NCBI GenBank assembly: GCA_021018995.1
Contig: CM037598.1
Span: 70,698,671 to 70,762,670, forward strand
Source: Chloranthus sessilifolius
Lineage: Eukaryota; Streptophyta; Magnoliopsida; Chloranthales; Chloranthaceae
Length of the DNA: 64,000 nucleotides
Direction of reading: 5' to 3'
In this document: positions 3,063 to 48,270 of the stretch, piece by piece
Layout of the letters: each line of letters begins with the position of its first letter
Position numbering within the stretch: the first letter of the stretch is position 1
The notes under the pieces: model-generated
Told to the model about the DNA's origin: nothing
Databases searched by the model: none
What the model saw: the letters and a program-made list of their open reading frames with translations, nothing else
Position numbers and translations under genes: made by a program

Positions 3063-3190
3063 GGGAAGTTTACCTGATCGGCCCTGTCAGATACACCTTT
3101 TACGTTAGAGGTCCTGTAGTTTCACCTTTATCCAAACCGACTAGCTCCAAGCCTAGCCGACTCTAAGGAGAGTAAAAAGTCTAAATTACC
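3063..3190 (+). repeat. MULE left terminal inverted repeat
   Basis: The first 76 bp match the reverse complement of the right end closely, with shared words such as CCCTGTCAGATACACC and CCTGTAGTTTCACC. Similarity then weakens to about 128 bp, where both ends show a CCCCC stretch. Confidence 0.85.
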
Positions 3191-3567
3191 CCCTTCTATG
3201 ACTTTCTTTAACCCACAAAGCATCATCTTCTTCCTCATTTTAATATGTTAAAAAGTTAGAGGTGGGTCAGGTCACAGGTGACGACGTTTTCTTCCTTAAT
3301 CTGATCTGCTATTTCGAAGAAAAAAACATAGGCTTGGGAGAAGAAGCCGTGCATTTCTCCATTGTGACAAGAAGACCCTGCAGTTTGCCCTTGCGACGCA
3401 AGGTATCTTACATAAACCCCATTTTCAGTTTATTAGGGTCTTTTAATGAGGCAATATAAGAAATAATTTAAGTTTATTGGTCCACATTTTCAGTTTGTTA
3501 GGATCTCCTATTCGTGCAGTATAAGAAAGTCTTTGTATCCTTGGATCATTTTTTGAAAACTATATAT

Positions 3568-3762
3568 CTCGATTGCAAATATAATCGTCATCGACTTTAT
3601 ATACAGTCGATATCGATTGCAAATATAATCGTTATCGACTCTATATTTAATCGATAACGATTGTCTATAAAGTCGATGACGATTATATATACAATCGATA
3701 TCGATCGTATATAGAGTCGATACCGATTATATTTGAAATCGATATCGATTGTATATAGAGTC
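3568..3762. repeat. 22-bp palindromic repeat array 1 (about 9 units)
   Basis: Perfectly phased 22-bp units, each a TCGATATCGA-like 10-bp palindrome plus a 12-bp AT-rich spacer such as TTGTATATAGAG. The array lies just upstream of the transposase start at 3820, in the likely promoter or leader. Confidence 0.9.
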
Positions 3763-3819
3763 CTTTCTTTTTTGTTTCATCAGTCTTATGACCCCTTCCT
3801 TCTCATTCTTAAACAGACG

Positions 3820-6550
3820 ATGACGGACGTGAGGATTCCTCTTCTTTGTCACTATGATGGCCTTCTTGTAAACGATGATGGCTTGTATGAAGGTGGCCGG
3901 AGGAGGGTCATTAACATTTCGACAAGTATTTCTTATGAACAATTCATGAGGCGAATGTCTGCTGTCAGTATTCCAAGGGCGGATGAAACAGTTTCTACAA
4001 AGTTTCATATGAAGATAGTGAATACCCCTGTGGTTGCCGACATTTTGGACGCTGATGATTTGGCCACCCTATTTACGTTTTATAGATCCGGGGTGGACGT
4101 CATAAAGGAATTCATCATTAAGGAATCGTCATCCTTCCGAGTCGAAGCTGAACAAGTAGATCTTGGCGGGACTGAATTTCAGCCATATAAGTTTGAGGAT
4201 GAAACTGTATACGATACTGTCCCGTTATGCGATGACAGCGATATTACGGCGAACATGACTGCCAGGAAAGCAAGTTTTGATTTAAGCGATGTTCCGATTG
4301 AATCGTATGATGACCCACTAAAATACATGCATAGGTCATAACAATGTAGTCAATGGTTAGACTACACTTCAAAACGGGCGGTGGATACCGACGATTTCAG
4401 TCATATCTTCCCCGGTGGATGGACAACTTGATTTACTTATGAATTATGCTCTACCATGCCATTGATGGGAATTACCGAAGAAACTCAATCCCATGTCCAT
4501 ACACATGAGCACCCCTTCGGTGAAGGGCCTAGTCAACCACGCCATTATCGATTCGGTGAAGGATCTAGTCAATCACATCAGACCCGTTTGGTGAAGGATC
4601 TAGTCAATCACCTGAGAATACCGCTAGTGAATGACATAGTTATCCTCAACCCACTAATGAGGATACCTTAGAAGAAGATTATGAAAGGGAATTAGATGGG
4701 TTTATAAAAGAGGATCCGAAAATTTTTGTGAGAGACATTGATAATCCCCTAGTAGACGGAGATTACGAAGTGCCAGAGACATCGGGCGACTCCTCCGATG
4801 AAGAGGTGGAAACTGAATATCAGAATTGGATGTTTAAAGTTGGAGAGATCTTCCGAGACAAATAAATATTTCAAAGATCATTGAAAGAGCACGCGGTGGA
4901 GAAAAACTTTCAAAATCGACTTGTGAAAACTACTAGTTATCGAGTGACAGCTAGATGCTATGAACCCGATTGTTTGTGGCAAATACATGCGTCTAAATTG
5001 ACTGGCTCGATTCTTTCTAAATCAAGACATTCAATAGTACTCACACATGCGGGGCTACTAAGATCGGACCGTACGGTCTCCGTAATGCAACAATCTCCTT
5101 CGTAGCCAACTATGTACGGGATAAACTTATGAAAAGATTCGACTACACACCGGCGTCGATAATATTTGATATTGTAAAAGCTTATAATGTGCAAATCTCA
5201 TATGCAAAGGGTTGGAGGGGAAAAGAACTTGCCCTTAATGATATTAGAGGCAGTTGGAAAGGAAAATTTGTGGATCTACCGGCCTACGTGAAGGAGATGG
5301 AGAGGGTAGATCCTAATGTACAAACATCCTTTCAACTTAAGCTTGACGGTAAGTTCCAAAGATTTTTTTAGAGTTTTGGCCCGTGCATCGAAAGCTATCG
5401 CAATACACTTCGTCGCATATTGCTTGTAGACGGCACACACATACAAGGACGTTTCGAAGGGATCCTACTTATTGCCTAGGTGCAAGACGGTAATGGTCAT
5501 ATATTACCGTTAGCATTTGCCGTCATCGAGTTAGAAGAAGAGGATACGTGGATGTGATTTCTTGAACAGGTAGGTGCGTTTGTGATCGGTGGGTTTAACG
5601 AAGATTTCGTTTTTATCACTGATAGGTCGAAGGGTTTAATAAATGCGATGAAACAAATCTTTCCTAACGCATATCACAACTACTGCATGCGACATATGAC
5701 ACAAAATTTGGCACACAAGTATCCCAAGAACAATGTGAAGGGTCTATGGTGGAAAGTTGCGCGTACATATTCAGTAGAGAGATTTGATTATTTTATGAAC
5801 GAAATGAAGAAAGATCTTGCTGATCCTCGGGCCGTACAATATATTTCGAAAATAGACCCGAAGCATTGGGCACGCGCACATATGGAAGGAAGGCAGTACG
5901 ATTCTCTGACTACGAATAGTGCTGAAAGCTTAAATAGTGTACTAAAGATAGCTCGAGAGAGACCAATTATCGACTTAATCATAACTACTAGAGAGAAAGT
6001 TGTCGATCATTTTCAAAAGCGCAGACAGATATCTGAGAAATGGACCACCCTCCTCTGCCCGAAAGCAGACGAGCATATGAAGAAGGTGTTGCAATGGGCC
6101 GGTAGAAAGAGAACTCAACAATACGGGCGTGATCAATTCCAAGTCAACTCCGAAAATTTCATTCATCACGTCAACTTGGAATACAAGACGTGTAGTTGCC
6201 GTCGTTGGCACATTCATGGCTTGCCTTGCTCCCATGCCGTGGCGACCATCAATCGGAGAAGTTACGACTACCATAACTTCTGTGGGAAGTGGTTTTTCAC
6301 CGCTGCTTTAGACAAACATACGACGAGTAATGACTTCCCACCCTCGATAAAAGCCAATGAAAGTTTCAAGCAGAGCAACTCCCTGAAAATATGAAAGTGA
6401 GACCACCCTGTAATTGCCGAAAGCAAGCCGGCCGTCCGAGGAAGAGAATGATAAGGTCTAAGGGTGAGGTTAAGGGCCTTACAGTGTAGCAGGTGCAGTG
6501 AATATGGTCATAATCGCAGGAGTTGCACGACAGTGGGACCGATGGGTTGA
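3820..6550 (+). pseudogene. MuDR-type transposase, disrupted
   Basis: DDE transposase for cut-and-paste movement of the MULE. The N-terminal domain starts at the ATG at 3820, chosen because the upstream in-frame ATG at 3733 lies inside the repeat array. An acidic linker and a MuDR-type Cys-containing region follow (4690-5105). The core has Asp in VDGTH (5429-5431), Asp in ITDRSKG (5621-5623) and Glu in NSAESLN (5924-5926). A SWIM zinc finger follows (CSC...CSH, 6191-6235), and a CCHC knuckle (6485-6526) precedes the stop at 6548. Internal stops at 5369, 5477 and 5555, plus frame breaks around 4341-4860 and 5105, inactivate it. Two of these stops replace Trp codons expected in this family. Long open stretches, for example 5582-6394, suggest fairly recent decay. 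I have not resolved introns. Confidence 0.88.
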
Positions 6551-6702
6551 TAGTGTATATTTTTAATAAAGATAGATGGAATGTAAACGAGAATATATAT
6601 TTGCTCAGAAATTCAGAATCTAGATTTTTTTGATTCGTAATAGTTGTAATTTTACTGTACAGTTACACAGAAACATGCAACCAAGAATGTACAAATGAGA
6701 CA

Positions 6703-7018
6703 TCAGCGATTGTATATATAGTCGTTGCCGATTATTTATAGAGTCATTATCGACTATATTTATAATCGATAGCGACTCTATACAGAGTCGCTATCGACTA
6801 TATAAATAATCGATAGCGACTCTATTCAGAATCGCCATCGACTTTATAATAATCGATAGCGACTCTATTCAGAATCGCCATCGACTTTATATAAAGTCGA
6901 TATCAATTCATTTTAGAATCGATATCGACTATTTATATAGTCGATAGGGACTCTAAATAGAGTCGTTATTGATTATTTGTATAGTCGATGACGACTATAT
7001 ATAAGTCGATAATGACTT
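6703..7018. repeat. 22-bp palindromic repeat array 2 (about 14 units)
   Basis: The same 22-bp period, with a 21-bp slip near 6850. It occupies the space between the 3' ends of the two convergent MULE genes. Several adjacent units alternate spacers ending in GAG or GAA with spacers ending in TAA. Confidence 0.9.
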
Positions 7019-7061
7019 CTATTTCTACATTATAACCACTGCTACTTAAAAAATGTTTCAA

Positions 7062-7967
7062 TTATATTAAAAATATTTCATTTACAAAAAATGTGTCATT
7101 TACATTTACAACCACACTGCTGCTGTGCCTACTCTTTGTCGTCCTCCTCAAGTTCTCTTCCCCCATCGCCGGTGTATGACCAATTTCTGCCCTGAACCTA
7201 TCTATATCTGATTGCACAAAGTCAAATTTCTTTCCTGACATGAAGTACTCCACATACTTCACCACAAACACCCCATAATCACTCGAATTGGTCTGTCGGG
7301 GAAGGGCTTTGATCCGACAGTCACTAGATGACCAAGGATAGGTCTCCGTGTTCAGTGCAGTGGAGTCATCATACGAATATAAAACCGCGGGAAGGTAGTG
7401 GGTCTATTTCAAAATAGAGGAATGCCAGATATGCTAAGCTAACAATGATGAAAGATATGCTAAGCAAAATATATTACCAGCATTTTTAATTGGGTCGGAT
7501 ATCTTTCCTTAGAGGGCCTATTAAATATAGGGTCGACGACCATTATCAATCATTCGACTACCTTCACGATCGTAAGCGCCCAGTGTAATGGTTGTTGAGA
7601 ATGAATTGGCATAAATATCTACAAAAATGTAATATAATCTCAAAGGGTATGATAAAAAAATTATAAAGAGGTTAGAAGCATACTGTGCTGCACGCATGAG
7701 CCCATAAATTCTGAAACTGATTGAAGAAGAAATTTTTCATCAGCTTCTTCCCTTGGCTCTGTTCTTGTTTATAGGCAGCCCACCGTTTAATTTACTCTCG
7801 AACAATTCTTCATATAATCTTTCAGCGAGAATGAACTTGTTAAAATCGTTCAGTTCAAAGCTCATGTATGTCAGAGTGGTAGGGCTCATAAAGAAGCTTT
7901 TGTGCTTTACATCAGGATGAATATAGTTATCAATTACTTCCAAGTGTCTCAGGTAGGTGCCCATAAT
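7062..7967 (-). pseudogene. Ulp1/C48 peptidase domain of the MULE second gene
   Basis: Three islands separated by plausible GT-AG introns. The first has an LEVIDNYI motif (7964-7740). The second follows an acceptor near 7620 and carries the catalytic His of HWALTIV (7583-7585) and an Asp in VVDPIFN (7532-7534), with a stop at 7550-7552. The third (7409-7062) has the QTN...GVFVVKY signature, where the family reads DCGVF but this copy reads DYGVF (codon 7275-7277). A one-base frame shift is needed near 7740. The domain is therefore catalytically dead as well as broken. Confidence 0.8.
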
Positions 7968-7993
7968 CTGAAACCAAAGCAGTTAGAGTTAAA

Positions 7994-8176
7994 TAATCGG
8001 TATCGACTCATTTTATAATCGATGACGATGACTTATATAATCGATATCGACTCTAGACTGAATCGATATCGATTCGTTGTCAAGTCGATAATGATTATAT
8101 ATATCATCGCTATCGACTATACAATGAATCAATATCGATTCAGTGTAGAGTCGATAACGACTCTATTTCAAGTCGT
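7994..8176. repeat. 22-bp palindromic repeat array 3 (about 8 units)
   Basis: The same repeat family, lying in the gap between the Ulp1 exon (ending 7967) and the Pro/Glu-rich exon (from about 8400) of the minus-strand gene, apparently inside an intron. Confidence 0.88.
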
Positions 8177-8907
8177 CGAGAGCTTTAAATTGTCTATTTG
8201 TGCCTACAATAGCTACAATAGCTTTACTTTACTTACAAACTTGTCCATGTACTACGTGCCCTCCAGACATTTGAAAGATTATACCACCAGCCTATAGTTA
8301 CCGACGGTGCTTACGTAGTCGCTGTATAAATGAAGGCCAATGTAACTAATCTTTGTAATACATTTATAAATTTATAATAATAAAGTGAAAGATTCAGGCT
8401 TGTTTCTGAGACGAATAACTTACTCGCCCTCCTTCTCAGGCTTGTTCTATATCTCTTGCATGTATTTCTGCTCCGCTGTCAGCACAACAGTAGCATCATC
8501 AGCCGTAGACCCAGGCTCAGTGGTAGCATTAGTCACCGGTCCAGGCTTAACAGTTTTCTTTCAATGGCCTTCTCGGTTATAGGCTTTTTCACCGTCGCTA
8601 CCCTTCGCTGTGTCCTAGGTTTGACAGTAGCTGTTTTGATGAGTTTTCCTTGCCTAGGTCTTAAGCGAGGGTCAATTTATTGGTGAGGCAATTGGGAAGA
8701 GGTTTGCTCTTCACCAGCTGGACCATTATCGGTTTGAGTCTCAGGCAGCTCGTCAGCAGTTGCCGTCACCTCACCCGTGGGAGGATCCTGATGCAGGGGA
8801 GCTGATGGTTTCTCATCGACCGTTGTGTCGCACACTTTCGATATCGGCTCCTCAATACCGCCATCCTGAACATCAAAATAATGGTGCAAAATATGTTAAA
8901 AAGTCCA

Positions 8908-9092
8908 AATCGATTTTACATTTAATCAATATCGACTGTATATATAGTCGATAACGATTCAATATACAGTCGTTATCAACTGTAGGTATAGTCGATAACG
9001 ATTCAATATACAGTCGTTATCGACTGTAGATATAATCGATAACGATTCAATATACAGTCGTTATTGATTCTTTATACAGTCGATATCGATTT
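8908..9092. repeat. 22-bp palindromic repeat array 4 (about 8 units)
   Basis: The same family, filling the intron between the exons ending at 8889 and 9096. Some units are nearly identical in pairs (a 44-bp higher-order repeat around 8940-9060). Confidence 0.9.
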
Positions 9093-9095
9093 ATG

Positions 9096-9413
9096 TTAAC
9101 AAATCTGAACACATAAATACCACGTTTCAACACATACCTTAGGTATCGCCTCCAATAAATTTTCAAGTTCTTTTATATTTTCCTGGCCCTTTCTGACCAA
9201 CGAGTTGTAGTGATTCAACTTCTGTAACTCCTCATCCCTTAATTTCAACCGCTCATTCAAGGAGTTGCATAGTTTCTCTATGAAAGCACAACGTTTCGCC
9301 AGGACCTTATTCTCTCCCTCCAAATCGCTCACTCTTTGGGTGAGCGTTAAGTTCTCCAGCGCCAAACCGTCGACCCTCCTCAACAACGACTCATTGGAGG
9401 TGGACGGTTCCAT
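9096..9413 (-). CDS. Coiled-coil exon of the MULE second gene
   Basis: An open stretch of about 105 residues with strong heptad-like spacing of Leu, Val and Ile (LALENLTLTQ, LEGENKVL, LNERLKLRDEEL), predicted as a coiled coil. It probably mediates self-association. It is an internal exon; the ATG at 9413 may be a coincidence of the frame. Confidence 0.55.
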   Translation of the reverse strand: MEPSTSNESLLRRVDGLALENLTLTQRVSDLEGENKVLAKRCAFIEKLCNSLNERLKLRDEELQKLNHYNSLVRKGQENIKELENLLEAIPKVCVETWYLCVQIC

Positions 9414-10103
9414 AAACTCACTTTCGGTGGCTAGGCTCTCTTATGCCCCCCACAGTTCTCGGCCGCTCTACACGTTATGCATTGACTTATTTAAAAATTA
9501 ATAATAATAAATTGTAATATCCCAAAAATTACGCGTTAAACAGTGATCTCGGGATCCGTGCCTGACTGGTCATAGGTTGACCATGTAGGAGTTCACTAGT
9601 TGACGTAGGATATGATGAACGGATGAGATGTGAGAATTTAAGTGAATGTGTGGAGGATGAGATTAATCTGGAGTCACATTCACCTATTTCTGGTGCATGT
9701 GCTCAACACACAGGTTGGAGGGGAGATAAAAGGGTTTAATAGCCCTAGTTTCTCTTTTGTTTGGTAGTTGAGGGAGAGTAAAGAAGAGAGAGAGAGAAGG
9801 AGAGCATAGTTAAAGCAAGGAGTTATTGTGGGTGTTTGGAAGGGGGATTCAAGCATTTAAAAGGCTGATTCGACACGAAGGATCCGTTCAAGCCAAAGCT
9901 GGAACCCTAGCCTTTTCAACCCCTTGACCTAATCAATTTGAGATTGATTGAAGGTAAAATTTCATAAATTAAATGCCTAGGTTATAGAGGTTTAAATTCA
10001 GTCAAGAATGTTTAAAATGATAGATTAAGTGCTTAGAAAAATGAAGGAAAAAGAGTAGGAAGAGATTTGAAAGAACAACCCAAAAGGGGGTTGAATCTGG
10101 CCA

Positions 10104-10562
10104 AATCGATTAATCGAAATTGGGTTTCGATTAATCGATTTTCGCCAAGAAGTTGAAAAGTCAAAATAGCCCGAATTCGATTAATTGAACTGAGTTTCGA
10201 TTAATCGACTTTGGATCTTGATTAATCAATTTTGGTGTCGATTAATCGACTGAGAGCCTCCAGTGAACTCCAGTGGCTGGAGGAAAGTGACCTGGGAAAA
10301 TCGACTAATCGAAATGGGATTTCGATTAATCGATTTCAAATTTCGATTAATCGATTTGGAATTTCGATTAATCGATTTGGGATCGATTAATCGATTTTAG
10401 GAATTCGATTACTCGAATTGAGAATCAAATTGATAGAGTAGAGAATTTTGATTAATCGATGTGGGATTCGATTAATCGAATGTGGACCTCGATTAATCGA
10501 TTTTGGGAATCGATTAATCGAATCAGTTTCGATTAATCGACTTTGGAGTTCGATTAATCGAC
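10104..10562. repeat. TCGATTAATCGA minisatellite inside LTR A
   Basis: About 18 occurrences of TCGATTAATCGA or one-mismatch forms, spaced mostly 20-22 bp, with T/G-rich spacers. A short unique segment (10255-10300) interrupts the array. Confidence 0.9.
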
Positions 10563-11072
10563 TGACATAAATTTTGTTGACTTTTTAGTTTGCCTTCAAG
10601 ATTCTCGGGGGGTCTTGGACCTTCCTTGTTATATCTTTAATGATGTGTTGCATGTGTTATGTTGTACCATAGGTGGTACGTATGATCGTGGGCACAAGGA
10701 GCCATGTGGGACCTTGATGCTTTGAGTTATCAGAGACTTGAGGTAGGGAAAACCTTAAACATGTACTTTAATTTACAAGAGCATGTATGTAGTGATATAG
10801 AATCAAATTGAAAACTATTTTATTGCTTAAAGTTTTATGAAAAGTGTGTGTGAGTGACATCAATAAGAGCATCTAATAATGAGCCATCCCCATGGGATGA
10901 GGAAGTAAAGTAATAAGAGCATCAGGTGTGATGCAAGTGAATAGACACATCCCAGGGATGTATCTAAGATTGAATAATGTCTGATAGGGCCTGACTGATA
11001 TAAGATACCACACTTACACGGTGAATAACTATATGTAAAGCACCTGATATTTTTGTTATTTGAGGTTTGATA

Positions 11073-11150
11073 GGATACCCCACAGACGTGGCGGGATACC
11101 CGCGACTGACGCGGCAGGATATCCGTGACCGATAATGCGGCGAAACCGTA
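11073..11150. repeat. Hairpin-type minisatellite in LTR A (3 units)
   Basis: Three units beginning GGATAYCC, each with a C-rich arm and a G-rich arm around a short loop, for example CCCCACAGACGTGGCGGG. It sits about 370 bp upstream of the conserved TGAGCT/GCTCAC block. Confidence 0.75.
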
Positions 11151-11775
11151 AGCTGCCATGAGGCTTATCCAGAGATAAGTTGAAACCCCGCCACCAATTC
11201 CCAGGGAAAAGGGGCTTGGGTACTATTTGTATTCTCAGGGAACACGTTTAAAACTGTCTATATAGATGACGATGAAGGGTATCTCATCGGGGCTCGATAC
11301 TATATTGCTCGGGGATTACTTAAGTTGAAAGGTTAAGTTTTGCTTTAGGCCTATTCAGTATCATTCATGATTAATTAAAAGACATGTGTAAACCACCAGT
11401 AAAATGTGATTCCTTTTCAACTGTTTCTTAGTAACTGCATAGACACATCATGCATAAGCATATCATGGAATACATGTGAGTTTTAATTTATATGTTCACT
11501 ATGTTTTGTTCCGTATTGAGCTAGGATGTAGCTCACCCCTTAGACTATTCGTCGCAGGTCCACTATTAGCAGTTGCTGAAGCTTCAGGGGATGTTGACCC
11601 TGGTGAGTCGGACCTTGCGCCTGGTGACGAGTTGGAGCCACCTCCTGAGGACTTCTTCTAGAGGACTCCGTTGTGCATCTTTGAGAGTTTTGTGAGCTTA
11701 TTTGGTACGGCTTGGTATGTCAAGCCTAGTTTTCATTAAACAATGTAATTAAATATTGGGATTATTCTTTTGGGG

Positions 11776-11812
11776 CGAACCATTGTGATGATTGGCAATC
11801 ATCGATGGTTCG
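11776..11812. other. Strong inverted repeat near the LTR A 3' end
   Basis: The outer arms CGAACCAT and ATGGTTCG enclose the inner arms GATGATTG and CAATCATC. LTRs at 28162, 34671 and 38888 carry different palindromes at the corresponding place, suggesting a conserved RNA fold. Confidence 0.75.
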
Positions 11813-12021
11813 GATCGGTTCTCCATTCATGCAGGGGCATGAAGGTAGAACCGTCTTTTGATCAATACTTAAATAATGAATTATTTCTGCAATTATTGTT
11901 ATCATTTTCAGTTTATTTCTATTGCTTGATATACCAGTGTTCCGTGCTTAGCCAAGGGGCATGGTCAAGATGATCTTGTCGATGGCATGGGTTTCGGGGT
12001 GCTGAAATTCGGACTGTCACA

Positions 12022-12255
12022 TGCATGGATGGGGCCCTTTTTCGAGGACGGTTCTTCGTCCGACGTCGATTGGTCATCCCATTCTTCCTCGTCAATATTC
12101 TCGACCGGAATGTAATTTCTCTTCTTCTCCGGCCGCATCTCTTCCACAACTTTCTTGACTGGTTCATGAGGCTCTTTCCTCTTCCCCCCAACGACATTTT
12201 TAACCCGTAGATATTCTTTTAAGACGAGTATCTCTAATTCGAAGCCAACAGGCAC
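12022..12255 (-). CDS. Acidic linker exon of the MULE second gene
   Basis: An open minus-strand stretch rich in Glu, Asp, Lys and Ser (EEEWDD, SDEEPSSKKG). It lies between the DUF1985 exon and the coiled coil, and LTR A cuts it at 12022. Likely a disordered linker. Confidence 0.5.
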
Positions 12256-12333
12256 GAGGGGAGCGCGAACCTTTTGAAAGAAAAGAAAACACAGTCAATA
12301 ACACACTAAATTGATCATATATTCCAAATGCAA

Positions 12334-12626
12334 AGTATCGACTATTTAATAAATCACTATCGATTCTGTAATGAATCGATACTGACTATTTAATAAATCG
12401 TTATCGATTCTATACTGCATCATTATCGATTACGTACGGAATCAGTATCGACTACTTAGTAAGTCGTTATCGATTCTGTAATGAATCGTTATCGACTTAT
12501 TAAATAGTCGTTATCGATTTTTGACAGCATCACTATCGATTACTTAATGAATCGGTATCGACTACTTAGTAAGTCATTATCGATTTTAGAATGAATCGAC
12601 AAGTTATTTTTTGAGTCGGCATCGGA
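12334..12626. repeat. 22-bp palindromic repeat array 5 (about 12 units)
   Basis: The same repeat, located in the gap between the DUF1985 exon (ending 12650) and the acidic exon (starting about 12255), that is, in an apparent intron. Spacers here are of the TATTTAATAA and CTGTAATGAA types. Confidence 0.9.
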
Positions 12627-12649
12627 TCTCTCTACTCCTTTTATTTAAA

Positions 12650-13463
12650 TTATTTAATAGACCTCATACCTTGCTGTCTAACATCTGTCTGTGTGTGTAA
12701 CCTCTGATCCTTGACTGTGCCCTGTCCGACCATTTCAGCAGTCGTGGGAAAGGGACCTCGAGGCCTATCTAGGAAGGCGAGATATCTGGCAGCATCTCGT
12801 AAGGCCCGCCATTGAAGTACACATATGCATCCATATGTGTTGTATGTCTTAAGGGCTTTATCCATCTCTGCGGTCTTTCTATTCGCCGCAGCCTTCATTA
12901 TATACTCAATCAAGTCGTGGTACACGTGGAGACCCCGCGGAGTTCGGTTAAAGTTCTCTACATCATCGATGAGGTCGATGTGGTCTTCTGAAAGTTGATG
13001 GTGGGACCCGGGAAAGAGAAATATGCACAGCACATATAGAAGGGACAACTTTATGAAGTCTTCATCACTTTTCGCTCTCCAAATTACAACATCTATATGA
13101 GACCGGAGAATTTTTTCAGGAGGCATTCCACGAAAGTATTTGTATCGAATGGTTTATTCTTCCGGTGGTTTAACGGACGGGGTATACTTTTCTGGGCCAA
13201 CTACGGCAAGGCCCAGTATCAATGCAATGTCGAACTTCCGAGGATAGACATCAGTCTTCCCGATTCGAAAGTAGTTTTTTTCAACTCAAAACGTCAACAT
13301 CGCATCGACCACATCGGAAAGAAATTTCACACCATTAGGCATTTGAAATATTCCACCGAAAACTGAATCTCTCAGCAACTTCTTTCTAGTTGGGGTAGCA
13401 TTATCGTAGAGATTCGAAATTGCACTGGGAGAACACTTGGCAATAGGTCGGTGTACAACCATC
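12650..13463 (-). pseudogene. DUF1985-like N-terminal domain of the MULE second gene
   Basis: Reading from an ATG at 13463, the frame carries LRDSVFGGIF, FDIALILGLAVVG and LSLLYVLCIFLF followed by a DLIDDVENFNR motif. This is the layout of DUF1985-type domains found beside Ulp1 proteases in plant MULEs. Two stops interrupt it before 13126 (in LTF*VEK and PEE*TIR). Its biochemical role is unknown. From memory, Arabidopsis VANDAL anti-silencing proteins also contain DUF1985, which makes this exon the key piece for the hypothesis given under findings. Confidence 0.7.
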
Positions 13464-13561
13464 TTGACAGCTAGTTGAAATGAACTGTAAAAAAAAAGAA
13501 AGGACTGAGTCCCACACTAACAAGGATAGTTTAAATGTTAACTGAGCTGTAATATATAAAA

Positions 13562-13921
13562 CTGATATCGACTCTAAATGTAATCGATAACGACTATTAA
13601 TAAAATCGATAACGACTCTAAATGTAATCGATATCGACTATACTTGTAATCGATATCGACTCTAATTGTAATCGTTATCGATTCTAAATGTAATCGATAT
13701 CGACTCTAAATGTAATCGATATCGATTTTATTTATAGTCATTATCGATTATATATAAAGTCGATATCGATTACATTTAGAATCGTTATCGATTACATGTA
13801 GAGTCGTTATCGATTATATATAGAGTCGATATCGATTACATTTAGAGTCATAGTCGATTACATGTAGAGTCGTTATCGATTACATTTATAGTCGATATCG
13901 GTTTTAATTAGAGTCGTTATT
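13562..13921. repeat. 22-bp palindromic repeat array 6 (about 16 units, inverted halves)
   Basis: The longest array. In the left half the spacer is mostly CTCTAAATGTAA; in the right half it is mostly TTACATTTAGAG, its reverse complement. The switch lies near 13735-13760. It lies 5' of the minus-strand gene, in its likely promoter. Confidence 0.92.
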
Positions 13922-14136
13922 TAATTTACAGACTCAAAATATTTTATGAAGTCTCCATCCACTCAAAAATTTTCATTTACATTCAAAATATTTCATTTAC
14001 AGTTAAAAATGAAATCTGGACACACTAAACTAAGACTCTGGCAGTAACGTTCGATAGAAGATTCTTCGATAAAGATCGGTCCTAGGCTTCTAACCAAAAT
14101 TTAGGAAGATGGATGATGAGCAGGTGGTGGATGGAG

Positions 14137-14370
14137 TTAAGAGGTGGGTGGTTCCGTCTTAATTTTCTTTCTCTTACTTTTCTTCTTTTTCTTTTCTTCC
14201 TTCTTCTTTTTCTTTTCTTCCTTCGCCAAAATTTTTTGCACTTCCTCGTATTCGTCCCATAGGAACTGTAGAGGATCTGGTTCTGGTGGTAGTGGATTCT
14301 CCCATATTGGAAAGAACTTGATTGGGTTATAGTTGGTTTTTTTATCATTTTTTATCGTTTGTCATGGGGA
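14137..14370 (-). CDS. Small Pro/Glu then Lys-rich reading frame in the MULE, unknown
   Basis: A minus-strand frame ending at the stop 14137-14139 reads FFPIWENPLPPEPDPLQFLW and then a run of Lys and Glu. The acidic-then-basic composition looks protein-like, but no domain is recognisable and no clear start is visible. It may be an upstream exon of the second MULE gene or a separate short ORF. A purine-rich simple repeat could produce the Lys run by chance. Confidence 0.35.
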
Positions 14371-14656
14371 AAGATGGGCTGGTAGGGATGATAGGGATTT
14401 ATTTTGCTATGGACGAACTAAACCTGTATTTAAAGTGCCTAGATGGTGGAATACGAATCATTGTATTAAATTTTCTTATCCTTCCAAGCTTGCTTGCCAT
14501 AATAGTTTTACAAAAGGGTAGTTGGCAATAAATTGAAGGAAATTAAATGTCGGCCGGGATAAATATAAAACCTCGTATGATTTATTATGGCATCGACGAG
14601 TTAATATGATGGGTAATAATTATATTCATATGATGGGTATTAATTATATACATATA

Positions 14657-14789
14657 GAGTCGATATCGATTTTTTATAAAGTCGTCATCGACTATTTATA
14701 TAGTCGATTACGACTACAAATACAATCAATATCGATTACATATGTAAGCGATATCGATTACATATGTAATCGATATCAATTGTATATAG
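14657..14789. repeat. 22-bp palindromic repeat array 7 (about 6 units)
   Basis: The last array, just inside the right terminal region, with spacers such as TTTTTTATAAAG and TTACATATGTAA. It brings the arrays close to both ends of the element. Confidence 0.88.
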
Positions 14790-15028
14790 GATAACCTTAA
14801 CAAATTATGTCAAAATGTGTACCAAAGAAAGGAGAAAAAAAAAATCTACAACAATGGAAGGTAATTTTAATTCCAACTTACTGATTTGGTAGCTTGAAGA
14901 TTGTAGAACTAAACGCTAGTGTCTACGAAGTGACACCGACTCTCCACTGACTTCGAACGAAAAAGTAAAAAATAGGAAAAGGTAAACAGTGAAGAGTTGA
15001 AAAAAGGGCGGCTATTTATTACATTGGG

Positions 15029-15156
15029 GGTAGTTTGGGCAATTCCTAAGGGCGGACGACAGCTCGGCGCGCAGCGGGCCGGTTTGGGTAAAGGTGAAAC
15101 TACAGGGCCTCTGACGTAAAAGGTGTATCTGACAGGGCCGGTCAGGTAAATTTCCC
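15029..15156 (-). repeat. MULE right terminal inverted repeat
   Basis: The reverse complement of this segment matches 3063-3190; the terminal 76 bp are best conserved. It is followed by the right T9 target duplication (15157-15165). Confidence 0.85.
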
Positions 15157-34904: not shown

Positions 34905-35105
34905 AACCACTGGTACCATATAATCCACCCATAGCGGTCCACACATGCATATATATTCCGCCCACAGCGGTCCACGATGTCATATAATCTGCCCGTAGCG
35001 GTCCACGACACACTTATAGTCTACCCATAGCGGCCCACGGTATTCTTACAATCTACCCATAGCGGTTCACGATATTCTTACAATCCGCCCATAGCGGTTC
35101 ACTAT
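34905..35105. repeat. ~37-bp hairpin minisatellite in LTR B (6 units)
   Basis: Units built on CCGCCCATAGCGGTCCACGA, where CCGC and GCGG can pair, separated by TATAAT-like spacers. Confidence 0.82.
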
Positions 35106-35504
35106 GTACTTGACTTATAATTCGATTTGGATTCAAATTTATTTACATTTTCAATTTAGATTCAATTTAAAGTTTACATTTGCTTCAAATTTAACTTTTT
35201 GGTCCGATTCAAAATTTACAAAACTCACACACGATGTTCAAAACTGAAATTCTTTACATGACTTACGAAGGCCAAAATACGATGTTCAAAACAAAAATCA
35301 TTATTTGATTCAATATTTCAATAAGTTCCCAAAACAAACCAACATATCAAAGATTCGATAATTCAAAGCTTTCGTGTATTTCAAACATTCGAAATATTCA
35401 TTCACATATTAAAATTCAAAGATCCAAGGTTTCAATTGCAAAGAGTTCAAACACTAATTCATGTTCAAATCAAAACATATCACATTTCATTCGATCATGG
35501 ATTT

Positions 35505-35755
35505 AACCGGCATGGCGGTTAAACCCATGAATCGAACTGACACGGCGGCTAACCGTGAATCAAACCGGCATGGTGGTTAAACTCATGAATCGAACATGCA
35601 CGGCGGCTAATCATGAATCGAACTAGCATGGTGGTTAAACCCATGAATCGAACCGGTACGGCGGGATATCCGTAAATCGAACCGGCACGACGGCTAACCG
35701 TGAATCGAATTGGTACGACAGTTTCCGTGAATCGAACTGGCACAACAAAATATCT
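35505..35755. repeat. ~33-bp GAATCGAACCGGCAYGGCGG repeat in LTR B
   Basis: Seven or eight units alternating GGCGGTTAAACC and GGCGGCTAACCG endings. The word CCGGCATGGCGG can form a small stem. Confidence 0.8.
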
Positions 35756-35764
35756 GTGAATCGA

Positions 35765-35995
35765 ATTGTGTAAGCTAAGTAAGAAAGTGTGAAACATATA
35801 AGTAAGCCAAGTAAGAATGTGTAAGACATGTATATAAGTAAAGTAAGAATGTGTGAGACATGTAAGTAAGCCAAGTAAGGATGTGTAAAACATGTATGTA
35901 AGCAAAGTAAGAATGTATAAAATATATAAGTAAGCCAAGTAACAGTGCGTAAGATATGTAAGTGAATGTGTAAATGTGTAAGCAATGTAAGAAAT
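35765..35995. repeat. GTAAGCAAAGTAAGAATGTG repeat in LTR B
   Basis: Five to six purine-rich units of about 35-40 bp directly after the previous array. The minus-strand frames with repeated Tyr/Leu/Thr across it are artefacts. Confidence 0.78.
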
Positions 35996-36739
35996 ATATA
36001 AGGTGTGCGAGAATGTGATTCGAACTCAGTAAATCAAAGATAAAAAATATGTTTTTGATAAGAGATCAGTTTCGATTTTGTTAAGAAAATGTCTTTGAAC
36101 TCAATTTCAGTTTTGATAAGAAACTGCCTTTGAACTCAGTTTCAATTTTGATAAGAAAATGCTTTTGAAATCAGTTTCGAATTTGATAAGAAAATACCTT
36201 TAAAATCAATTTTAGTTTTGATAAGAAAATGTTTTGATCTTGTCTTTGAATCTATGCATGTGATGAGATGTATATTGGTATTAGTTTTCTCCACTGAGCT
36301 TAGATGTTAGCTCACCCCGACTATATGTCATAGGTGTAGGTTTGAGGAAGGCCCAAACTACATACGTGAAGAAAAGGAGCTTCCACATAAGGATTTATAC
36401 TCTGTTCCGGGATTGTAGATTTAGTGCATCATAGACCTTGGTAAATTCGGGTTTGGTACGTTCATGCTATTATACATGCATGGTATACTATTGTTGGTGA
36501 TGGTTGGTCATCACTAGTATTTGTTTTATTCAATATATATTAGGTATTAGAATTGGAGATTTTTATTCAGGACATATATAACTTTACTTTGATTTTCGTA
36601 TGCATATGGATGTGTCAATTATTCTATATCAGATTGTGATCTACGATCTGGCGGTCTGGGTTTTCCCAGTTTGGTATAAGTTGAAAGAAAAAAAAAATAT
36701 GTCTCAAAATTTCGGGTTGGGAAAATCCGGGTTGTCACA

Positions 36740-46960: not shown

Positions 46961-48270
46961 ATGCCCATTTTTTCTGAAGCCATGACCAACTTTCCTCTCT
47001 CATTCTCTACCTCCATGCCCCATACAACTTCCCCATATATGCCCATTCCATCCACCAATGCCCCACCTCATTCCTTCAACCCCTCTCATATCCCGCCTCT
47101 TACCCGGGTCATGCCCGATTTTACCGGGGCCATGCCTAATTTTTCTTCTTCCCACACCCCATTCACACCCCTCCAACCATCAAATAACTCATCTCCATCC
47201 GATCCCCCTTCCATGGCCATGATGGAGATGTTTCAAACCTACAATAGGTAGAAGGCCTCCCAACACATCCCCTCTCATCCACACCACACACCCATGGATC
47301 CATCCCATGCCCTATGAAGCCTCTATGCCTCACTCTCCCATGACCCCCATCAACCCCCCATCATCCACAGTACCCAAACCCCCATTTCCCACATGTCCCA
47401 AGGCCCAATGGCCTAAACCCCCATTTCCCACATGTCCCAATGGCCCAAACCCCCATTTTCCACATACCCCAAGGCCCCATTGTCCAAACCCCCATTTCCC
47501 GCATACCCCAAGGCCCCATGGCCCAAAACCCCATGACCCATACCCATCAAGGGCCCATGGCCCAGACCCATCAAGGGCCCATGACCAAGATCATCAAGGC
47601 CCAATGGGCCAAACCCACGAAAGGCCCATTCCCCAGACCCATCAAGACCTAATGGGCCAAACCCACAATGGCCCATGACCCAAACCCACCAAGGCCCCCT
47701 GGGCCACACTTGTCATGACCAAGGCTTTGTGGTCCAATCTTTCCAAGGACCCATGGGCTAAACTTTCATAGCCCAACCCTCCCAAGGCTTCATGGTCCAA
47801 ACCCATGCCTAGCAAAACCTTGGAGCCTCACACCCATACCCTTCACAATTCCTCCAAAATTTCACCCACTCACAACCCTCATACCCAGCTCAAACCCTTG
47901 CCTTACATCAACCCCAATTCACCCATATCCCAACATCCCAGAGTCAATTTCAAGCCTTTCCCCTAGTCCAATGGCCTCATCAGGCCCCACTCCAAAATCT
48001 AACTTCCACTCCTCCCATCATCCAACAAACTTTCCCTCATCCCCAATGGACTCACCCAACCCCCACTCATGCCATTCCCATCCAATCCGTGCAGCACTAG
48101 CAAGAGAATCCCACTCTCACTGCTCCTTATATAGACCAGCAATATGAAGACGATGAGATTAGAAATAGCGAAGCCTATGTTGGGGTATTGACTAGCCTTA
48201 GCCCCCCACCCCTTAGTAGCCCAGAGTGACGTCCAACCGACTGCTAAGAAAGTGGCCCCCATATCTAGGG
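46961..48270 (+). pseudogene. Pro-rich region 5' of Tat gag, with amplified repeats
   Basis: Frames rich in Pro, His, Ser and Thr in several phases, preceding gag. In 47340-47720 a roughly 24-30 bp word (GGCCCAAACCCCCATTTCCC and variants) has been amplified many times. Ogre-type elements often carry an extra ORF or a Pro-rich Gag N-terminus here; I cannot tell which. It is not a plant extensin gene: it has no signal peptide or SPPPP pattern. Confidence 0.55.

Follow-up and report, generated by a model that had tools for sequence, protein, structure and literature searches.

The closest described systems are the VANDALs of Arabidopsis, Mutator-like elements (MULEs) whose proteins VANC21 and VANC6 bind motif arrays in the non-coding DNA of their own element (YAGTATTAY for VANC21, AGTTGTCC and AGTTGTAC for VANC6) and remove or prevent silencing, according to the available part of PMC5735166. 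VANDALs have degenerate terminal inverted repeats (TIRs), as stated in the accessible portion of PMC10398659. For the KAONASHI (KI/KIU) MULEs, the available part of a review describes a Ulp1-bearing VANC, motifs of their own and motif recognition within the group (PMC13317346), and Ulp1-bearing TIR-MULEs of grapevine and melon, with the ULP gene in either orientation and a 9-bp target site duplication (TSD), are described in the available text of PMC2528002. The plant mobile domain (PMD), found in proteins of MULE and Gypsy elements, has also been captured by MULEs, and its use in anti-silencing was speculated upon by the authors, in the part of PMC5418596 at hand. The anti-silencing principle is already published, and the element described here would be a variant of it: a MULE in a 64,000-nucleotide stretch of the Chloranthus sessilifolius genome (C15:70698671-70762670, hereafter the window; the host genome searched comprises 2.17 Gb), whose non-coding DNA bears phased arrays of a 22-bp unit. 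These arrays are probably the targets of a DNA-binding protein encoded by the element, most likely its DUF1985/PMD-Ulp1 protein, in a VANC-like anti-silencing system.

The MULE spans positions 3063-15156 of the window and contains a transposase gene (3820-6394, forward strand) and, convergent with it, a Ulp1-type second gene running leftward from 13462 to 7062. Seven arrays in its non-coding DNA together hold 75 units of 22 bp, with 66 of the 68 steps being exactly 22 bp. Array A1 (3563-3748, 9 units) lies directly upstream of the transposase start and A2 (6722-7015, 14 units) between the 3′ ends of the two converging genes; A3 (7997-8160, 8 units), A4 (8904-9089, 9 units) and A5 (12332-12583, 12 units) each lie in an intron of the second gene, A5 being in intron 1, and A6 (13562-13923, 17 units) and, farther away, A7 (14660-14779, 6 units) lie upstream of this gene. 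In A6, the orientation of the units reverses in mid-array, which makes this array a long inverted repeat as well. The earlier note on this DNA, which was made from the letters alone, had placed seven phased 22-bp arrays near these positions, upstream of, between and inside introns of both genes; this observation is confirmed, save that no array lies inside the transposase gene. We then counted strong sites, defined as matching TCGATATCGA at at least 9 of 10 positions, against the expectation from dinucleotide shuffles. The arrays (1,570 bp) hold 46 (3.05 expected from shuffles of the arrays themselves), the transposase gene none (0.15 expected), the exons of the second gene one (0.08 expected) and the 48.8-kb right flank one (0.95 expected). 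The absence of the repeat from coding DNA, as it had been claimed, holds for the window with the exon site at 8838 as the sole exception. The observed/expected ratio of CpG reached 3.48 in the arrays, compared with 0.88 for the remainder of the MULE and 0.60-0.63 for the flanks.

Across the host genome, the exact sequence TCGATATCGA occurs 19,555 times, versus 1,291 times for the reversed pattern. We sampled 18 stretches, corresponding to the 13 places listed first for TCGATATCGA hits, all on C1. Six hold elements of the same lineage as the window (lineage A; copies a-e and s1) and one (s3) an element of a second lineage, B, with a single strong A site; of the rest, one (g, L012) carries a 22-bp array of a different repeat and five (f, s2, s4, s5 and s6) show isolated sites within other repeats. 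Copies a-e matched all eight protein pieces and carry 6-12 arrays each; in the window and the copies, these occupy the upstream regions of both genes, the gap between the 3′ ends and introns of the second gene. With a slightly looser unit calling than that which gave the window's 75, the six elements contain 375 units in 49 arrays, and 319 of 326 steps are exactly 22 bp. Protein-homologous DNA makes up 36% of the length of copies a-e and contains none of their 176 strong sites, with exon parts that lack homology to the protein pieces used scored as non-coding. A search with the domain exon of the window gave 7,027 candidates, 144 of which were scored, some without an internal stop; at the best-scoring 20 places, the window's own exon (L022) included, an array was present upstream in 20 and downstream in 19, and three weaker sites (at least 8 of 10 positions) lay inside the exons. 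The lineage A motif and its phase are thereby shared by 26 places (the window, a-e, s1 and L023-L041). Hence, on the genome-wide check that the earlier note had proposed, the arrays are confined to non-coding parts in the window and five copies, and the motif is present in many places.

Slippage spreads tandem repeats, which coding DNA tolerates poorly, and this by itself could confine them to non-coding DNA; the arrays might then be a neutral, functionless tandem expansion. However, the cores are alike between arrays while the spacers drift (identity of 0.80 versus 0.49, with 0.27 and 0.34 expected from composition), the same motif and phase recur at the 26 places, and other lineages carry other motifs. 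We consider neutral expansion very unlikely.

The unit had been described as palindromic, and this description stands in part: the core is a near-dyad, but the palindrome is perfect in a minority of units (14/75). In lineage A, the half-site RTCGATA is nearly fixed and the other half is variable, and an oriented motif, made up of ARTCGATA and then a variable half, has a better fit than a symmetric motif, with a log-likelihood gain of 23.8. In 100 simulations under the symmetric model, fitted with 4 restarts instead of the 20 used for the real set, the gain averaged 9.7 (standard deviation 2.3, maximum 16.2). At core positions 4 and 7, complementary letters were found in 24 cases versus an expected 35.8 +/- 3.2, a deficit that also argues for an asymmetric motif. 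Covariation over the two dyad axes showed no consistent gain in 44 column tests: a few columns reached P values of 0.001-0.04, several had fewer pairs than expected, and the signal at column 9 of the core axis vanished under within-array shuffling. An even succession of half-sites every 10-11 bp was considered for lineage A and dropped, as the half-sites abut in the core (start offset of 5 bp, then 17); in lineage B, they begin 11 bp apart.

The symmetry could itself be the point if the arrays gave rise to hairpin RNA that feeds or evades small-RNA silencing. The transcript of A6 is predicted to fold into one long hairpin (-202.5 kcal/mol versus -82.5 +/- 4.8 for 100 shuffles), and in each of the other six arrays a segment folds better than 200 of 200 shuffles. 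However, A2, A4 and A5 split into shorter hairpins, arrays of near-palindromic units fold in this way in general, and the covariation tests show no consistent gain. Strong as the folds are, they are expected from any such array, so this reading was rejected, and we give it little credence.

Related lineages in the same genome carry other motifs, B and E beside A, and this is new. Lineage B, represented by F2 and by F3 (fetched in part, with no ends found in that part), has 20-bp arrays of CGATAAT..ATTATCG, placed much as in A: upstream of the exon (F2 and F3), in the gap between the exon and Ulp (F3) and past the end of Ulp (F2). The six A elements hold 29-60 pairs of A sites spaced at +22 bp each and no B dyads, and the two B elements hold no such pairs and 5 and 15 B dyads, so that the two are mutually exclusive in 8 of 8 elements. 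The motif of lineage E, GAAGCG/CGCTTC, was seen first in L064, where CGCTTC occurs 12-13 times (about 1 expected), and was found again in L065 and L066, which were retrieved later (9 and 12 times versus about 1). These two loci are 63 and 69% identical to L064, which places them in the same lineage, and the 21-, 22- and 42-bp repeats of L065 contain the E motif. L064 is about 40% identical to A and 37% to B; overall, A, B and E share 37-40% identity with each other and 21-28% with lineages C, D and F.

The loci of lineages C-F came from a search for DUF1985 that returned 4,046 candidates, of which 150 were scored; the first 20 were inspected together with five selected for frame length, profile range and location. 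A 6-mer test was applied around the DUF1985/PMD exon (about 1.5 kb), calling 6-mers that contain CG and occur in at least 6 copies with a z of at least 8. It was passed by 19/20 loci of A, 1/1 of B, 3/3 of E and 1/22 of C, D and F, the last being L060, whose near relatives L058 and L059 have no such motif. The co-variation of motifs with DUF1985 subtypes that the earlier note had put up for checking is thus found among A, B and E, whereas 21 of the 22 C, D and F loci have no comparable motif, and the idea of a single motif for all DUF1985 genes was rejected at z 8. At eight lineage C loci (L042, L044, L046 and L049-L053), ATCGGA occurs 6-8 times around the exon (about 1 expected; z of 4.5-6.5), perhaps a sparser lineage motif under the bar of 8. 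In addition, 10 of 20 DUF1985 loci inspected carry a 26-27-bp repeat in 2-3 copies.

The arrays, their phase, their non-coding place, the conservation of cores over spacers, the many copies and a motif that differs with the lineage suggest a protein that reads them. We infer that this protein is encoded by the element and is more probably the DUF1985/PMD-Ulp1 protein than the transposase. It would bind the arrays along the non-coding DNA and, by analogy with VANC, would keep or render the promoters and introns of the element free of silencing marks. As a dyad recurs every 22 bp in A and every 20 bp in B, or once in two turns of the helix, the bound proteins would lie on one face of the DNA, and a probable coiled coil could allow them to dimerize.

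Several observations weigh against this interpretation. Lineages A and B differ in the transposase and in the second gene alike (F2 and F3 versus the window: 34-36% identity in the DUF1985/PMD exons and 34-55% in the transposase pieces), so that the comparison does not distinguish the reader. The B half-site CG[AC]TAA[TC] is enriched in A elements (12-29 versus 4.8-6.7 expected), meaning that the two codes overlap partly. Lineage B is represented by two elements and lineage E by three loci, and E is weakly phased, the commonest same-strand step being 21 bp in L064 (2 cases) and L065 (3) and 23 bp in L066 (2). The CG and z limits of the 6-mer test were chosen after the E motif in L064 had been seen, and without the CG condition L062, of lineage F, shows GGTGCA 7 times (0.5-0.8 expected; z of 7.5-9.3). 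All 22 C, D and F loci score over the DUF1985 cut-off, including the 21 without a comparable motif within about 1.5 kb, and one of these 21, L056 of lineage D, has adjoining transposase homology. The core CpG is retained in 125 of 150 cases, and 20 of the 25 losses are CA/TG, a sign of past methylation. Lastly, palindromic arrays of about 21 bp with other sequences occur in a solo long terminal repeat (LTR) and in unclassified repeats, which weakens the uniqueness of the MULE arrays. The association with DUF1985 that the earlier note had drawn is thus exclusive on neither side, as there are arrays in the solo LTR and in unclassified repeats, and many DUF1985 genes (C, D and F) have no arrays; the interpretation of the note as a whole is partly supported.

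The motif differs between A and B and so do the transposase pieces, which would also suit arrays that are binding sites of the transposase, serving transposition or its own regulation as subterminal repeats do in other DNA transposons; moreover, in each of the five larger copies the arrays lie within the element. Transposases usually act on TIRs, however, and the ends of this element bear ordinary TIRs. The arrays are spread over introns and the middle of the element, and the first 500 bp at its left end contain none. Binding by the transposase is, in our view, quite unlikely.

Arrays outside the family were also recorded. That of the solo LTR (window 10107-10560) has 18 TCGATTAATCGA-like palindromes with steps mostly of 19-22 bp and belongs to the LTR, not to the MULE; a relative in L016, 81% identical over 1.6 kb, has the same array. 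F3, the B element, contains a 21-bp array of TCAATCGATTGA (L021 3796-4023; C1:3415796-3416023), perhaps in a nested element. A 22-bp array of GGTGTCAACGCTTTGATACCGA, some units with CGATATCGA, lies at L012 3112-3251, in a 6-kb stretch with no match among the eight MULE protein pieces. A 19-21-bp array of TGGTGATCGATCACCA lies downstream of the lineage D exon of L060 (2765-3208) and is absent near L058 and L059. Among the TCGATTAATCGA, TCAATCGATTGA, TGGTGATCGATCACCA and CGATATCGA arrays, only that of TCGATTAATCGA was shown to lie within an LTR. Tandem Repeats Finder also reported minisatellite arrays with units of about 24-39 bp at window 34922-36231 and 47373-47706.

The outside arrays may reflect independent helical spacing, a copied code or sites for a host factor. 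In one alternative, the MULE arrays would be promoter or intron enhancers recognised by a transcription factor or an architectural protein of the host, and various repeats would have converged on a similar helical spacing. A1 and A6 are indeed directly upstream of the two gene starts, and the solo LTR and other repeats hold palindromic arrays of about 21 bp that consist of ATCGAT-like sequences. However, the motif shifts with the lineage of the element, to CGCTTC in E, which is hard to reconcile with one host factor, and the probability of this explanation appears low. A broader proposal is that DUF1985/PMD proteins share a geometry and read one dyad per about two turns (22 bp in A, 20 bp in B and, loosely, 21 bp in E), with half-sites that change (RTCGATA, CGATAAT and GAAGCG) on a pitch that stays. 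The LTR retrotransposons with palindromic arrays of about 21 bp may then be read by relatives (Gypsy-encoded PMD) or may have copied the code for shared protection. We regard this proposal as possible, though rather unlikely.

The transposase gene is broken by frameshifts and stops, with MULE and SWIM domains within 5558-6394 (Pfam; SWIM at 2.5e-8, and the MULE domain PF10551 at 3e-8 in the window and 1.8e-16 in copy a). On the reverse strand, exon 1 of the second gene (12670-13462) carries the DUF1985/PMD-type domain with two in-frame stops, while its relative L031 has an open frame. Exon 2 (12022-12279) follows from a reading of frame and splice sites. The next exon (9138-9477), cut by the solo LTR, encodes the probable coiled coil, for which the coiled-coil/bZIP matches are weak and under the Pfam cut-offs. 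It is followed by exons at 8420-8872 and 7740-7975 (limits approximate for both), the latter with an acceptor at 7975; the exons at 9138-9477 and 7740-7975 have homologues in copies a-e. The last exon (7062-7403) carries the Ulp1 domain (C48, PF02902; 3.8e-8 in the window and 1.6e-9 in copy a). Its catalytic-Cys position is Tyr in the window and Cys in copy a; consequently, the protease of the window copy would be inactive. The solo LTR that interrupts this gene (9483-12021, flanked by the TSD TGCAT at 9478-9482 and 12022-12026) is nested and not a part of the MULE. In searches for protein homologues, none of 1,251 candidates reached E 0.01 in a database possibly poor in plants; the transposase piece had no match in the Protein Data Bank at E 1, and a plasmid collection gave none. 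The single-sequence structure prediction of the DUF1985/PMD exon was all-helical with a mean pLDDT (predicted local distance difference test) of 45.2 and was left uninterpreted.

These Pfam domains support the MULE with a Ulp1-type second gene that had been proposed, but not the plain DUF1985 label for lineage A. Against cut-offs of 35.1 bits for DUF1985 and 34.9 bits for PMD, the DUF1985 scores are 17.0 bits in the window, 30.1 in copy a, 20.4 in L031 and 26.4 in lineage B, all below the cut-off; L031, in turn, passes PMD (35.5 versus 34.9 bits). Lineages C-F pass DUF1985, with 46.4-48.2 bits at the lineage E loci. As 18 of 19 aligned exons match DUF1985 and 15 of 19 match PMD at E 0.01, the two domains seem best treated here as a single superfamily. 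The DUF1985 family profile had matches in none of 14 control genomes.

The TIRs of the window element measure 95 bp (3063-3157 on the forward strand and 15062-15156 on the reverse) and are 87.4% identical by blastn of the left versus the right end. Nine T flank both ends, which leaves the limits of the TSD uncertain in the window; copy a has a clean 9-bp TSD, TTTTCGATA, on both sides, in agreement with a MULE. Both TIR ends were located in copies a-d, and the stretch fetched of copy e showed the left end and no right one.

With clear TIRs instead of degenerate or missing ones, the element is not a VANDAL. An EMBO J paper of 2022 on the diversification of VANC reportedly describes, in its abstract, the gain and loss of DUF1985, DUF287 and Ulp1 and helical periodicity as a factor in specificity, and it comes close to the present combination. 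In the open-access literature, outside of which most subscription papers lie, we did not find a TIR-MULE that combines a PMD-type domain, Ulp1, strict 20-22-bp dyad arrays and several lineage motifs per genome. As far as the available part of PMC5735166 describes the VANDAL/VANC system, the likeness lies in a MULE with a second gene that has a DUF1985-related domain, in motif arrays in the non-coding DNA of the encoding element and in a motif that differs among related families (A, B and E). The differences are the clear TIRs, the CG-containing dyad-like motif and the strict 22-bp phase, together with a lineage A domain closer to PMD and the presence of Ulp1. The suggestion that this could be a system independent of the VANDAL type is unsupported, since a Ulp1-bearing VANC with its own motifs (KIU) is described in the accessible part of PMC13317346. 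In KI/KIU elements, too, the Ulp1 gene is reverse to the transposase (orientation from the available text of PMC2528002); KI elements, however, are non-TIR MULEs. The grapevine and melon TIR-MULEs resemble the present element in their TIRs, ULP gene and 9-bp TSD and differ in that the text available describes no array, the word 'tandem' being absent from the main text of PMC2528002. In the MULEs of grasses and Amborella, PMD is fused to the transposase, according to the available part of PMC5418596, whereas here it heads a separate Ulp1 gene. Anti-silencing by VANC is known in Arabidopsis, where the elements concerned have degenerate TIRs. In the present genome, related lineages differ in motif, and two of them keep a strict phase of about two turns of the helix; candidate places number in the thousands, and some have an open domain exon. 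This offers a natural series for how such proteins read DNA, how a protein evolves along with its target and whether it is the pitch of the helix that is conserved; if the anti-silencing interpretation is true, the half-sites would be addresses for the directed removal of silencing in plants.

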